Shown here piece after piece: positions 18,403 to 26,286 of a DNA stretch of 36,935 nt. The DNA is from Dehalococcoidaceae bacterium (lineage in GTDB: Bacteria; Chloroflexota; Dehalococcoidia; Dehalococcoidales; CSSed11-197): NCBI GenBank assembly GCA_016928015.1, contig JAFGLQ010000020.1:1-36935 (forward strand). Reading direction: 5' to 3'. Both the position numbers and the translations under genes were made by a program. Positions within the stretch are counted from its first letter, which is position 1, and each line of letters opens with the position of its first letter. Below the pieces are notes generated by a model that had not been told where the DNA came from, made no database searches, and worked only from the letters and a program-made list of their open reading frames with translations.

Positions 18403-19401
18403 TCAACCGCCAATCTGCCACATCTGCCGGGCTGCCGGTAAAACATGTTCACCTAAACGATGCTTTTCGTGTTTGATATCGGCCGCCTGTGACATTAGTT
18501 TTCTTAACTCTTCGTCGCTCATGCCTCTACGCATAGGCGTTTTTATATCTATTTCTTCATCGTCCAGCAGGCAGGGCCGCAACCGGCCATCGGCTGTCAG
18601 GCGCATACGGTTGCATTTGGAGCAAAAACAATCCGTTACCGCCCCTATAAATCCAATAGTGCCTGTGGCGTTTTCCAACTGGTAGTATTTGGCCGGACCG
18701 TAACCCTTTGACGGCATAACCGGGGTAAGCTCACCCATGTTACCGGCGATTATGTCCTTTATCTCGGCATCGGAAACGGTCTGGTTGTGAGCAAAAGTCG
18801 ACCCCTGGCTGCCATCGCAAGCAAAAGGCATATACTCAATGAAACGAACATGCCAGCCGTCGGTTACAGTTTTGGCGGCGAAATCCAGTATCTCTGAATC
18901 ATTAATGCCTTTGAGCAGGACTGTATTGATTTTAACCGGGTTGAGGCCGGCTTTACGGGCAGCCTCGATGCCTTCTAAAACAGTCGACAGCTTGCCGCGC
19001 CCGGTCATGTAATGAAATTTTTCTGCATTAAGGCTGTCCAGGCTTATATTAACCCTGTCCAGTCCGGCAGCCGCCAAATTTTCGGCATGCCTGGCAAGTA
19101 CGGTGGCATTGGTGGTCATGGAAATATCATCAATTCCGTCGATATTTTTCAGCATACCGACCAGCACCTCGAGGTGCGGCCGCATCAAAGGCTCTCCACC
19201 TGTTAGCCTTAAACTGGTAATGCCCATTTGTGCTCCCGCGCGCACAATACGCTCTATTTCTTCGTAGCGCAGGATATCGTCATGGCTGAGGCGTGGTACC
19301 TGGTGAGCAGTGCAATAGATACACCTGAGGTCGCAATGGTCGGTAACTGAAATGCGCAGATAATTAATGCGCCTCTGAAAATTGTCAACTAAACAGGTCA
19401 T
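18403..19401 (-). CDS. moaA: GTP 3',8-cyclase (radical SAM)
   Basis: LRISVTDHCDLRCIYC radical SAM motif, TSLRLTGGEPLMRPH, VNISLDSL, CFCSKCNRMRLTADGRLRPCL C-terminal cluster, although the terminal GG is in QIGG. Confidence 0.94.
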   Translation of the reverse strand: MTCLVDNFQRRINYLRISVTDHCDLRCIYCTAHQVPRLSHDDILRYEEIERIVRAGAQMGITSLRLTGGEPLMRPHLEVLVGMLKNIDGIDDISMTTNATVLARHAENLAAAGLDRVNISLDSLNAEKFHYMTGRGKLSTVLEGIEAARKAGLNPVKINTVLLKGINDSEILDFAAKTVTDGWHVRFIEYMPFACDGSQGSTFAHNQTVSDAEIKDIIAGNMGELTPVMPSKGYGPAKYYQLENATGTIGFIGAVTDCFCSKCNRMRLTADGRLRPCLLDDEEIDIKTPMRRGMSDEELRKLMSQAADIKHEKHRLGEHVLPAARQMWQIGG

Positions 19402-19442: not shown

Positions 19443-20615
19443 CTACAGAAGTGATGGCACGTCTCTGCCAGCTTCTTCGGTCAGGTCGGTTTTTACCCGC
19501 CTGTCTTCAGCCCGCTTTTCCTGCACTTTGGGCAATTTACTGGCCTTAGCATATATCTGACTGACACGCGGGACACAGGCAATCTTGGAAAGAATCACGG
19601 TAATATCGATGGATGCCTTGTTCCTCGGGTAGTCCCCATTGCGTATTACCGCCTGCGGAGCAAAAGCCCTCAGGTGGTCCCCGAGTTCTTTTACGAGATC
19701 CATGTTGAGTTCCCGGTGAGGTGCAGATATAAGGAATAGGCCGTTATAGGCTTCCTCCGGATTGAAGTCGATGCTCATTTCACTCAAAGCCTGGTCCATT
19801 GCTTCTATGCCCCGGTGGACGGAAGAACCCCGTTTTCTGAAATTTGGGCTGTAATCCCATGGCAGAGGAATAAACGGTATTTTTACAACCCCGTAACTTA
19901 ACGCCGACCAGCCTTCGAGTGTCTGGATTATATCACCGGCATCCAGCAGCCTGGCGCCGATATTTCCCCGGCGCTTCTCTTCCCCGGCGGACAGCGGGTT
20001 TAAGAACGGCTCGGCAATTAAACGGTTGATGCCTGAAATGTTGCCCTTAAGCGAATGGTCCTTGCGCACAAACCTTTGATTGTCTACCAGAAATACGGCG
20101 TCGGCTATGGAACTGGTAGCCTTCAAGCACAATGCCGAATTGTATACAGCCCTTTCTTCGGTATTTTCTTCATGTTCAAAGGGCAGTACCAGCAAAGAAT
20201 AAACGGGTTTGTCGAAACGCTTTTTCAGTTCCTGTACCAGTACCGGCGTACCGCCGCTTCCGGTTCCTCCGGCAGTGCCGGCGACCACCATGAATGCATC
20301 GGCTTCGAAAAATCGTGATGTTGAGCGCATGGCATCTATTATCTTATCGGCATCGTCACGAATAATTTCAGCCCCCATTTCGCCTATCTTGGCGACGCCG
20401 TGGCCCCGGGTTTTACCGGCTCCGGCCAGTATCATATGCTGATAATCGTTGCGTATACTTCTGATGGATGCCATATCGGCTGCATCAGTATTTACCGCAA
20501 ATGTATCAAGAATAATTTCAAGCCGGCGAAACTCCATTGCCCTGTCCTGAACACGGGCAAATTCATCGGCTATACGCCCGCCGCACTGGCCTATCCCTAT
20601 GACTACCAGCTTCAT
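19443..20615 (-). CDS. CetZ-like / noncanonical tubulin-FtsZ superfamily GTPase
   Basis: N-term MKLVVIGIGQCGGRIADEF, tubulin signature AGGTGSG (TAGGTGSGGTPVLVQEL), and INRLIAEPFLNPLSAGEEKRRGNIGARLLDAGDIIQTLEGWSALSYG at the T7-loop position, unlike FtsZ NVDFADV. Confidence 0.8.
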   Translation of the reverse strand: MKLVVIGIGQCGGRIADEFARVQDRAMEFRRLEIILDTFAVNTDAADMASIRSIRNDYQHMILAGAGKTRGHGVAKIGEMGAEIIRDDADKIIDAMRSTSRFFEADAFMVVAGTAGGTGSGGTPVLVQELKKRFDKPVYSLLVLPFEHEENTEERAVYNSALCLKATSSIADAVFLVDNQRFVRKDHSLKGNISGINRLIAEPFLNPLSAGEEKRRGNIGARLLDAGDIIQTLEGWSALSYGVVKIPFIPLPWDYSPNFRKRGSSVHRGIEAMDQALSEMSIDFNPEEAYNGLFLISAPHRELNMDLVKELGDHLRAFAPQAVIRNGDYPRNKASIDITVILSKIACVPRVSQIYAKASKLPKVQEKRAEDRRVKTDLTEEAGRDVPSLL

Positions 20616-20732
20616 GGCAAACCTCCTGGATTTTCTTTCTGAAGTCTAGGGCTAATCGCATTCTTTGTCAACCGCTTTAACGCCTTTTCAGGCGTATTTG
20701 TTGGCAAAACGGCTGGACGGCAATTTCTTCAC

Positions 20733-20762
20733 TTGAAACCCGCCTATCAAAAGTGATATACT
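20733..20762 (+). promoter_or_regulatory. Sigma70-like promoter for the nuo operon
   Basis: TTGAAA (20733-20738), 18-nt spacer, TATACT (20757-20762), about 50 nt upstream of nuoA. Confidence 0.55.
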
Positions 20763-23313: not shown

Positions 23314-24416
23314 TGGTGGAGCTGTTATTGCTACCGGCCAGTATACGCTCTGAACTACCCTTCGGTTACTGGTTGCATTTGCTGATTTTCGGACTGGGTA
23401 TAATTACCCTGTTGCTGACCAGCGTTATTATATTTATCTGGCTGGAACGCCGGCTGGTGGGCCGTTTCCAGCTCAGGCATGGCCCTAACCGCGCCGGCCC
23501 ATTCGGCCTTCTACAGTCGGTGGCTGATGTTATTAAAATTCTTACCAAGGAAGACATCATCCCGTCCCGTGCCGACAAACTGGTCTTCTGGATGGCACCC
23601 GTCATCGCCTTCACACCGGTGGTTCTTATGCTGGGTGTAGTCCCGGTTGCCGACGGCGCTTTGCTTGCCGACCTGAATATAGGCATATTGTTTGTAGTTG
23701 CTATTAGTTCCGTCACCTCCCTGGGTGTTTTCATGGCCGGCTGGTCTTCATATAACAAGTATTCCCTTTTAAGCGCCATGCGGACCGTAGCCCAGCTGGT
23801 AAGCTATGAAATGCCGCTTATCCTTTCCATGGTGGGTGTGGTTATCCTGACCGGCTCATTATCTCTCAATGAGATGGTTAAAGCCCAGTCTATTCCGTTT
23901 ATCCTGCTGCAGCCGGCCGGGTTTTTCATTTTCTTTACCGCGTCCCTGGCCGAAATAAACCGGACCCCGTTCGACCTGCTGGAGGCCGATTCCGAACTGG
24001 TAGCCGGATATAATATCGAGTATTCCGGTATGAAGTTCGCCACTTTCTATCTCACCGAGTACTGCGAAGCCATAGTCCTTTCCACGCTGACCGCCACCCT
24101 GTTTCTGGGCGGCTGGCAGGGACCCTGGCTGCCACCGATGATATGGCTTCTTTTAAAAATAGGCCTGGTATTTTGTGTCATCGTCTGGATAAGGGCTACT
24201 CTTCCCAGGTTGAGAATAGACCAGGTGATGAACTTCGCCTGGAAATTCCTGTTGCCGCTGGCCATCCTGAACCTGCTGCTTACCAGCCTGAGCGTAATCT
24301 TCTGGCCGACAGCTCCGGCATGGGCATCCGGCCTTATCAACCTTTCCATGCTGGCGGTGTTTATTCTTGTTTACTCCAAGTTTTTCAAACCGGGAGGCAA
24401 AACAGTTGCCGTTTAA
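23313..24416 (+). CDS. nuoH: NADH-quinone oxidoreductase subunit H
   Basis: ERRLVGRFQLRHGPNRAGPFGLLQSVADVIKILTKEDIIP, AEINRTPFDLLEADSELVAGYNIEYSGMKFATFYLTEY. Confidence 0.96.
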   Translation: MVELLLLPASIRSELPFGYWLHLLIFGLGIITLLLTSVIIFIWLERRLVGRFQLRHGPNRAGPFGLLQSVADVIKILTKEDIIPSRADKLVFWMAPVIAFTPVVLMLGVVPVADGALLADLNIGILFVVAISSVTSLGVFMAGWSSYNKYSLLSAMRTVAQLVSYEMPLILSMVGVVILTGSLSLNEMVKAQSIPFILLQPAGFFIFFTASLAEINRTPFDLLEADSELVAGYNIEYSGMKFATFYLTEYCEAIVLSTLTATLFLGGWQGPWLPPMIWLLLKIGLVFCVIVWIRATLPRLRIDQVMNFAWKFLLPLAILNLLLTSLSVIFWPTAPAWASGLINLSMLAVFILVYSKFFKPGGKTVAV

Positions 24417-26286
24417 GAGATATGGAAACGGTATAGCCAGAGGTATGGCCATCACCCTGAGCCATGTTGTCAAAAAACCGGTTACCACCCAGTATCCGGA
24501 CGAAAGACTGAGCACATCGAAGCGAATCCGCGGTACCGAACTGGGCTGGTCGGCACATGAATGCTCGGCGTGCCTGTTGTGCCAGGACAGCTGCCCTCAT
24601 GGCTGTATAGAAATCAAAACTTCCGGATGCCGGAGCGAAACCATGCCGGCGCCCTGCTCCAGTAAATGCCCGGCCAACGTAGACGCGGCCAGATATATCA
24701 ACCTGCTGTCGCAGGGCAAACCCGGTGAAGCGGTCGCGGTCATCAGGGAGAGAATACCTTTCCCGGTGGTATGCGCCTATGTATGCGCCCACCCGTGTGA
24801 AGCAGCCTGCACCCGCGGGCATCTTGACGAACCTATAGCCATCCGCATGCTGAAGCGTTATGCGGTGGACAATGACAACGGCGTCTGGAAAAGCCGGACT
24901 GCACCCGCACCTCCCAGCGGTAAAAAGGTGGCCGTAATAGGCTCCGGGCCTGCCGGGCTTACTGCCGCCTATTACCTTGCCAAAAAAGGCGGCCATTCGA
25001 TTACCGTTTTTGACGATTTGCCCCAACCGGGCGGCATGGTGCGCGTAGGGATTCCGGATTACCGCCTGCCCAAGCATTTACTCGATAGAGACATTGATGA
25101 AATCAAGGCTCTGGGGGTAGTGTTTAAAATGAACACATCCATCGATTCTGCCCATGAGCTCTTAAAACAAGGCTTCGATGCCGTGTTTGTCAGCATCGGA
25201 GCCCATCAGAGTTCCCGCATGAAAGTACCCGGAGACGATGATCCCAGAGTTCTGGGCGGAGTAGAATTTTTAAGGCCGGTCAATTCAGGTCAAAAGGTAG
25301 AAATCGGCAAGCGGGTAGTGGTTGTCGGCGGCGGTAATACCGCCATGGATGCCGCCCGGACCGCCGTAAGGCTGGGCGCAAAGGAAGTAAGTATCGTATA
25401 CCGCCGCTCCAGGACTGAAATGCCGGCAGCCAACGAAGAAATCGAGGATGCCGAGGCCGAAGGGGTCAAAATGATGCTCCTGGCCAACCCTTCCAGGATA
25501 TTCGATGACAACGGCCAGCTTAAGGTCGAATGCCTCAAGATGCGCCTGGGCGCTCCCGATGAGAGCGGCAGGAGGAAACCCGAGCCTGTTGAAGGCAGCG
25601 AATTCATTGTCGAAGTTGACAATGTCATCGCCGCAATCGGCCAGAAACCGGTTATCCCCAAAGCTTTCGATTTCGAACTCGAGTGGGGAAATATCAAGGT
25701 AGGCTCCGACATGGCAACCTCCGTACCCGGCATCTTTTCAGCCGGTGATTGCGCTACCGGCCCGGCAACCATTATTGAAGGAATTGCCGGCGCCAGAACA
25801 GCGGCTGAATCGATCGATAAATTCCTTGGCGGTACCGGTGATATTTCCGAAAAGCTGGCTGAGGACCAGTCATGCCCGGCAGGAGATAACGCCTCGGTAA
25901 CCTGGGGCACCCGCCCGGCTTTTCCCATGATTGACATTACCCTGCGCCGCACCACCTTCGAAGGCGCCGAAAAGAGCTGGGATAGGGATACGGCAGGTTT
26001 CGAGACCTCCCGGTGTTTGAAATGCGGCCAGTTCGAAGTTGCCCATTACCAGCTGGATGCCGGGCGATGTATTTTTTGCGGTTTATGCGTTGAATCCTGT
26101 AATTTCCACGCCCTGTTTATGGGCAGGGGATATGAGAGAACCGGCTACCTGCTCGAAGAAACTGTCCTGCAAAAAGAAGACCTCGCAGTTGACCGGCTCG
26201 TAACACCCAGCGCGTATTATCATACCGAGCTTGAAGAGGGCCTACCGGCACAAACTCTGCTAGTAGAAGGAAAGCTGAAGGCATAA
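24406..26286 (+). CDS. nuoI: NuoI (complex I 2x[4Fe-4S] subunit) with an inserted GltD/NfnB-like Fe-S, FAD and NAD(P)-binding oxidoreductase module
   Basis: NuoI N-term (GIARGMAITLSHVVKKPVTTQYPDERLSTSKRIRGTELGWSAHECSACLLCQDSCPHGCIEI), then a GltD-type module (FAD GSGPAGLTAAYYLAKKGG; NAD(P) VVGGGNTAMDAARTAVRLGAKEVSIVYRR), then NuoI C-half (CIFCGLCVESCNFHALFMGRGYERTGYLLEETVLQKEDL). The TTG at 24406 or ATG at 24445 is the likely start. Confidence 0.9.
   Translation: MPFKRYGNGIARGMAITLSHVVKKPVTTQYPDERLSTSKRIRGTELGWSAHECSACLLCQDSCPHGCIEIKTSGCRSETMPAPCSSKCPANVDAARYINLLSQGKPGEAVAVIRERIPFPVVCAYVCAHPCEAACTRGHLDEPIAIRMLKRYAVDNDNGVWKSRTAPAPPSGKKVAVIGSGPAGLTAAYYLAKKGGHSITVFDDLPQPGGMVRVGIPDYRLPKHLLDRDIDEIKALGVVFKMNTSIDSAHELLKQGFDAVFVSIGAHQSSRMKVPGDDDPRVLGGVEFLRPVNSGQKVEIGKRVVVVGGGNTAMDAARTAVRLGAKEVSIVYRRSRTEMPAANEEIEDAEAEGVKMMLLANPSRIFDDNGQLKVECLKMRLGAPDESGRRKPEPVEGSEFIVEVDNVIAAIGQKPVIPKAFDFELEWGNIKVGSDMATSVPGIFSAGDCATGPATIIEGIAGARTAAESIDKFLGGTGDISEKLAEDQSCPAGDNASVTWGTRPAFPMIDITLRRTTFEGAEKSWDRDTAGFETSRCLKCGQFEVAHYQLDAGRCIFCGLCVESCNFHALFMGRGYERTGYLLEETVLQKEDLAVDRLVTPSAYYHTELEEGLPAQTLLVEGKLKA

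Follow-up and report, generated by a model that had tools for sequence, protein, structure and literature searches.

A tubulin-like GTPase gene placed back to back with the nuo operon of a bacterium raises the question of which family of the tubulin superfamily it belongs to and what its product could do in such a cell. The stretch of DNA analyzed here (the window; 36,935 nucleotides) is contig C43 of a 1.61-Mb MAG (G000) that is 92% complete. An earlier note on this DNA had taken the product for a CetZ-type tubulin rather than FtsZ in a bacterial-looking genome, citing the motifs GQCGGRIADEF (T1 loop) and AGGTGSG (T4), both of which are present in the open reading frame. The host is indeed a bacterium, of the Dehalococcoidales (Chloroflexota). 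The gene and its principal elements are as follows.

19443..20615, minus strand: cetZ, the nuo-type paralog, ATG start, 390 aa
20577..20591, minus strand: T1 loop GQCGG, GTP binding (aa 9-13)
20253..20270, minus strand: T4 tubulin signature GGTGSG (aa 116-121)
19932..19943, minus strand: T7 synergy loop DAGD, acting on the GTP of the next subunit (aa 225-228)
19446..19463, minus strand: C-terminal peptide DVPSLL, proposed to bind a membrane adaptor (aa 385-390)

The window protein is a CetZ, not an FtsZ, as the earlier note had held. The product matched the Pfam families Tubulin (PF00091; 105.7 bits, cut-off 33) and CetZ_C (PF21011; 45.7 bits, cut-off 21.6), and in a control run on 14 genomes PF21011 rose above its cut-off in Haloferax volcanii only. 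The closest solved structures by sequence were H. volcanii CetZ1 (4b46) and CetZ2 (4b45) and the CetZ of Methanosaeta (3zid); the family profile aligned with 4b46 over the full length (228 bits). We modeled the protein with AlphaFold, using 16 relatives as input (mean pLDDT 83.4, pTM 0.84). The top four matches of this model in a Foldseek search of the PDB were CetZ chains, with 4b46, 4b45, and 3zid ahead of any FtsZ. With Haloferax CetZ1 and CetZ2, the protein shares CetZ_C, the best fold match in the PDB (TM 0.92 on target), and an acidic T7 loop; its homology to a Halorussus CetZ is full length, at about 30% identity over 391 aa. The published description of the family includes an archaeal host, and here the host belongs to the Dehalococcoidales, but this is a trait of the description and not of the protein. 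Nearly all named relatives come from Dehalococcoidia or Dehalococcoidales MAGs, and the nearest of them are 86-89% identical. Against these nearest orthologs, dN was 0.07-0.09 and dS was saturated, which indicates purifying selection on the gene.

There is next to no chance that the protein is of the plasmid or phage TubZ/PhuZ type, which shares the superfamily and gives a weak family-profile score (4xcq), but viral contigs gave no match, plasmid matches were haloarchaeal only (about 30% identical or less), and the neighbors are chromosomal housekeeping genes; archaeal contamination is refuted by the bacterial neighbors (nuo, moa), whose order recurs in independent MAGs, by bacterial synteny in many MAGs and in single-contig genomes, and by the conservation of the gene in tens of families within a single bacterial order.

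It is also very improbable that we are dealing with a divergent FtsZ or with the only division protein of the cell. The FtsZ/tubulin fold is common to both families, and the FtsZ equivalog TIGR00065 (NCBIfam) gave a partial match, but its 55.9 bits lie far under the 295.2 required, and the protein scored only 20 bits against its own genome's FtsZ versus 129 bits against a haloarchaeal CetZ. A careful tree separated FtsZ from CetZ with support of 100/100 and left the window protein outside FtsZ, and an AU test rejected its grouping with FtsZ (p = 0.02). The earlier note had proposed looking for a canonical ftsZ elsewhere. Two canonical FtsZs are encoded elsewhere in the same genome, each preceded by an ftsA, so the window protein is not the sole division FtsZ. 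Together, the TIGR00065 score, the tree with its AU test, and the two canonical FtsZs refute an FtsZ identity. The ftsA-ftsZ pairs lie on contigs C20 and C114 (L047:2641-5047 and L048:6493-8885), and one of them belongs to a reduced cluster, mraZ-rsmH-ftsA-ftsZ, the order that loss of the intervening murein genes would leave; gene names in these clusters were assigned from sequence and size.

The prediction of one additional, noncanonical tubulin was right in that a CetZ exists beside FtsZ and too low in its count, as the genome carries two FtsZs and four CetZs: that of the window and those of contigs C76 (54% identical), C37 (46%), and C66 (40%). These four copies represent four lineages in the tree, three of which also occur in complete genomes of family f9. 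The window CetZ clustered with the nuo-type CetZ of the Dehalogenimonas-like genome G085, and in the careful tree the nuo-type paralog of the genus sits on a long stem (0.48).

Nor, in a second correction to the earlier note, is CetZ an oddity of one genome. It is widespread in the Dehalococcoidales, including cultured Dehalococcoides: CetZ_C was above the cut-off in 50 of 61 relatives within the order. When 301 Chloroflexota genomes were sampled evenly, 22 of the 39 Dehalococcoidia had CetZ, as against none of the 262 other Chloroflexota. The genomes of family f9, mostly single contigs, contain 18-50 reductive-dehalogenase matches. Within genus g9 (Dehalococcoides), where a 16S primer that we take to be Dehalococcoides-specific matched exactly, genomes have 19-28 rdhA matches, and each of three genomes encodes two CetZs. 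The other genus of this family, g46, we assign to Dehalogenimonas on its rdhA content among other features. The source genome itself has seven reductive dehalogenase family matches (best E value, 6e-19), which may mean that it belongs to an organohalide respirer or encodes RdhA-like proteins. Three loci titled "Deltaproteobacteria bacterium" (L072, L074, and L082) have the same cetZ locus and CetZs that group with those of Dehalococcoidia, and they probably come from mislabeled MAGs.

The GTPase loops are conserved throughout this set. T1 residues G9, Q10, and G12 were present in 132 of 133 Dehalococcoidia CetZs, with a gap in the remaining one, while GGTG and the final G of T4 and D225, G227, and D228 of T7 were kept in all 133. 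All paralogs thus look able to bind and hydrolyze GTP. The segment that the earlier note had equated with NVDFADV of FtsZ, LDAGDIIQTLEGW, does align with the T7 loop (VVDSSEIINTL in CetZ1; NLDFADVK in FtsZ). Its DAGD corresponds to D..E of CetZ1 and D..D of FtsZ, the catalytic T7 position being D in Dehalococcoidia CetZ and E in CetZ1. From the intact loops and the fold, the window CetZ would be expected to polymerize head to tail; GTP would lie between subunits, and the following subunit would supply the T7 loop that hydrolyzes it.

The last residues of the protein are also constrained. P387 and L389 were invariant in alignment A1, the pattern x-[ILV]-P-x-L was found in 132 of 133 Dehalococcoidia CetZs, and almost all of them end in D-I/V-P-S/T-L-L, mostly DIPSLL. 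The FtsZs of the same genome have ELDVPSFLRK and ELEVPSFQR near their C-terminal ends, and that of E. coli FtsZ reads LDIPAFLRKQAD. Haloarchaeal CetZs likewise end in acidic peptides (ELxxLF or EIESLF). Judged by this likeness to the C-terminal anchor peptide of FtsZ, DVPSLL is probably a membrane-adaptor peptide, through which filaments would be held at the cytoplasmic membrane. SepF, which tethers FtsZ in archaea, was sought in 77 genomes and was absent from all of them, which rules it out as the membrane anchor of CetZ and leaves FtsA as the best candidate for the adaptor, a guess at present.

The surroundings of the gene bear on whether CetZ is linked to respiration. The elements next to cetZ are listed below.

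20643..20671, minus strand: sigma-70-like promoter of cetZ, TTGACA-17-TAGACT
20733..20762, plus strand: divergent promoter of nuoA, TTGAAA-18-TATACT with a TG extension, a neighbor outside cetZ
18403..19401, minus strand: moaA, 41 bp downstream of cetZ

The spacer between cetZ and the divergent nuoA (20812, plus strand) is exactly 196 bp, the length given in the earlier note, where it was called notable. It contains two separate sigma-70-like promoters that face opposite ways, where 0.5 would be expected by chance, and most of the aligned relatives have them conserved. TTGTCAA (plus strand) was found in 6 of 6 orthologous spacers, and TGAAGTcTA is nearly invariant. The spacer is conserved in part of the group, but it contains two independent promoters and argues only weakly for a functional link to complex I. 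On the other side, moaA is followed by moaC and then a MOSC-domain-like gene. Cotranscription of cetZ, moaA, moaC, and the MOSC gene is possible, and the cetZ-moa order is the same in L050, L051, and L092. Across 80 named loci, the commonest order, full or partial, was enolase ... gapA > cetZ > [ORF8 < ORF7 <] > cetZ > dnaX > ybaB > recR. In a second type, which comprises nine loci including the window, nuoABCD and cetZ point away from each other, and moaA often comes after cetZ; in G085 the nuo-type cetZ is also near nuo, in another arrangement.

It could be supposed from these loci that CetZ filaments position membrane enzymes, such as complex I and other respiratory complexes, and have no part in shape. 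In agreement with this idea, DET0589 of D. mccartyi 195, which is annotated as FtsZ, is linked by its transcripts to hup, fdh-like, and nuo genes (PMC5102406); from its gene position, DET0589 may be the gapA-type CetZ. Against it, only one of the four paralogs is near nuo, the others lying near gapA/dnaX, recN, or a two-component system, and cetZ and nuoA each have their own promoter. We therefore regard a respiratory role as improbable. Within the nuo operon of the window, a 639-aa gene at 24367-26286 joins a GltD-like oxidoreductase (Fer4_20/Pyr_redox_2) to a 4Fe-4S domain at the C terminus. It occupies the NuoI position, and L051 has a gene of the same cluster. Among the open reading frames of this operon, we recognized no separate nuoE, F, or G.

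Of the two further genes in the gapA-type loci, ORF7 proved to be closely tied to cetZ. This previously undescribed gene (425-900 aa) has no Pfam match. Its hydrophobic period of 3.58 residues and its repeat unit of 25 residues are typical of a long coiled coil, as far as the sequence tells, and the motif RLEFLARMY is conserved in its tail. A profile of this tail, run on 77 genomes, gave 22 matches at E <= 1e-3, and all 22 were within 1.5 kb of a cetZ and in CetZ-positive genomes. The ORF7 copy of the source genome adjoins the C37 cetZ, outside the window; another example is L045:9966-11684, which like others accompanies cetZ loci, and ORF7 is often paired with ORF8. ORF8 (about 170 aa) also has no Pfam match and was modeled as a single helix of 130 residues. 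The nuo-type paralog is without coiled-coil neighbors and, given also its long stem, may have diverged in role. We propose that the four paralogs are specialized, as a gapA-linked, a coiled-coil-linked, a nuo-linked (the window gene), and a deep-branching form, and their specialization may have come about partly through coiled-coil partners.

Outside the order, in the same class, cetZ has other companions. The same-strand genes upstream of it at L151:6907-8547, L152:8511-9992, L156:13456-15357, and L157:6925-10348 encode surface proteins in which a signal peptide and TIG/Ig-like repeats are combined with a membrane helix at the C terminus; this points to the envelope.

We then compared CetZ with the cell wall genes, searching for FtsW/RodA and MreB in 74 Dehalococcoidia and three outgroups. 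MreB was counted only at E < 1e-100, as matches at about 1e-12 were frames of FtsA or DnaK size. None of the 47 CetZ-positive genomes had a true MreB, and FtsW/RodA was found in one of them (G039), on a 3,434-bp contig that may be a binning error. Conversely, CetZ was absent from all seven Dehalococcoidia with both FtsW and MreB. The association of CetZ with the lack of murein was significant in the even sample (Fisher's exact p = 0.0013), a test that ignores shared ancestry, so the correlation may reflect one or a few evolutionary events. CetZ is not strictly required in such cells, since it was not detected in 10 of the 32 murein-less Dehalococcoidia of that sample. Previous work showed that the ancestor of Dehalococcoidales and SAR202 lost its murein synthesis genes (PMC10608941) and described an archaea-like S-layer in place of murein (PMC10608941, PMC4959651, PMC11994032). 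Within the Chloroflexota, CetZ was found only in lineages without peptidoglycan and MreB, reportedly with an archaea-like S-layer. Haloferax is an S-layer cell too. These observations suggest a rule that would hold in two domains, in which the absence of murein and an S-layer envelope go together with a CetZ cytoskeleton. In Haloferax, CetZ1 has a part in producing the rod shape (PMC11621097).

According to our model, CetZ filaments tethered to the membrane serve as a scaffold that organizes shape and envelope in cells that have neither murein nor MreB. We put the chances of this model at about even. The earlier note had likewise suggested that the protein could set cell shape or organize membranes. 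The separate provision for division, in the form of two ftsA-ftsZ pairs, counts in favor of a distinct shape role. A more specific version, in which the CetZ paralogs, ORF7, and ORF8, tethered by the FtsZ-like peptide, make up a cytoskeleton that replaced MreB and murein when the ancestor of the Dehalococcoidales lost its wall, is offered more tentatively, and we would sooner bet against it than for it. The chief competitor is that CetZ is an accessory division filament that cooperates with both FtsZs in a divisome free of murein and shares FtsA with them through its peptide. The resemblance of DVPSLL to DVPSFL of the same genome's FtsZ argues for this, and two ftsA-ftsZ pairs suggest an elaborate divisome. 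However, at the loci examined cetZ was never inside the mraZ-rsmH-ftsA-ftsZ cluster, several CetZ-less genomes of the order must still divide, and archaeal CetZ1 has been described for shape and motility (PMC11621097). A division role is accordingly unlikely, yet clearly the strongest of the alternatives to a shape and envelope scaffold.

The Dehalococcoidia proteins share with haloarchaeal CetZ a short acidic C-terminal peptide and differ in their bacterial host, the D-I/V-P-S/T-L-L tail, the gene neighbors, the presence of up to five paralogs, and the coiled-coil partner genes. With canonical FtsZ they share the superfamily fold, the T4 motif, and a DxPxxL-like C-terminal peptide, but there is no equivalog match, they form a separate clade, and the gene lies outside the dcw cluster and coexists with two FtsZs. 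BtubA/B, TubZ, and FtsZl1/FtsZl2 (PMC2875224) are other non-FtsZ members of the tubulin superfamily in bacteria; the similarity to these is weaker and limited to the GTPase domain, and Tubulin_2 scored below its cut-off. MreB, the shape cytoskeleton for which CetZ may stand in, has an actin fold, unlike CetZ, and within the Dehalococcoidia it occurs only in murein-bearing members, those without CetZ.

CetZ has been called archaea-specific (PMC9856176, PMC11621097). However, CetZ-like proteins were noted in 2023 by Santana-Molina et al. within the Dehalococcoidia, where they formed sparse paraphyletic groups (PMC9871819), so the existence of CetZ in this class is not in itself new. Those sequences very probably belong to the same family; they occupy one or two sentences of that report, the main text of which does not cover paralogs, distribution, context, tail, partners, or a link to wall loss. 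As the literature searched contained nothing on them, the breadth, the multi-paralog organization, the FtsZ-like tail, the coiled-coil partners, and the correlation with loss of murein and MreB appear to be new. A supposedly archaeal family is thus widespread and multicopy in a large bacterial order that includes Dehalococcoides, an organism of bioremediation. This offers a cultivable bacterial system, with new partner genes, for the tethering of tubulin-like filaments and for shape without a wall.

Finally, we considered the origin of the bacterial proteins. Two trees joined the bacterial CetZs into one clade apart from the haloarchaeal ones (support of 98 and 83), a grouping that is tentative, as in the careful tree the haloarchaeal clade is attached by a very long branch with weak support; a transfer between archaea and bacteria may have run in either direction. 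A second CetZ in genome G184 of the same class (L149:5495-6553; also seen in L129) is far closer to the archaeal type: it has 352 aa, is 39% identical to Halorussus CetZ, lacks the C-terminal peptide, and is on a contig with apparent aromatic amino acid genes; it may have been acquired from archaea independently. In Natronorubrum, a gene annotated as "coiled-coil protein" (L142:4717-5598) follows a CetZ2-type gene at a distance of about 630 bp, downstream of it, and is possibly an archaeal parallel to ORF7.
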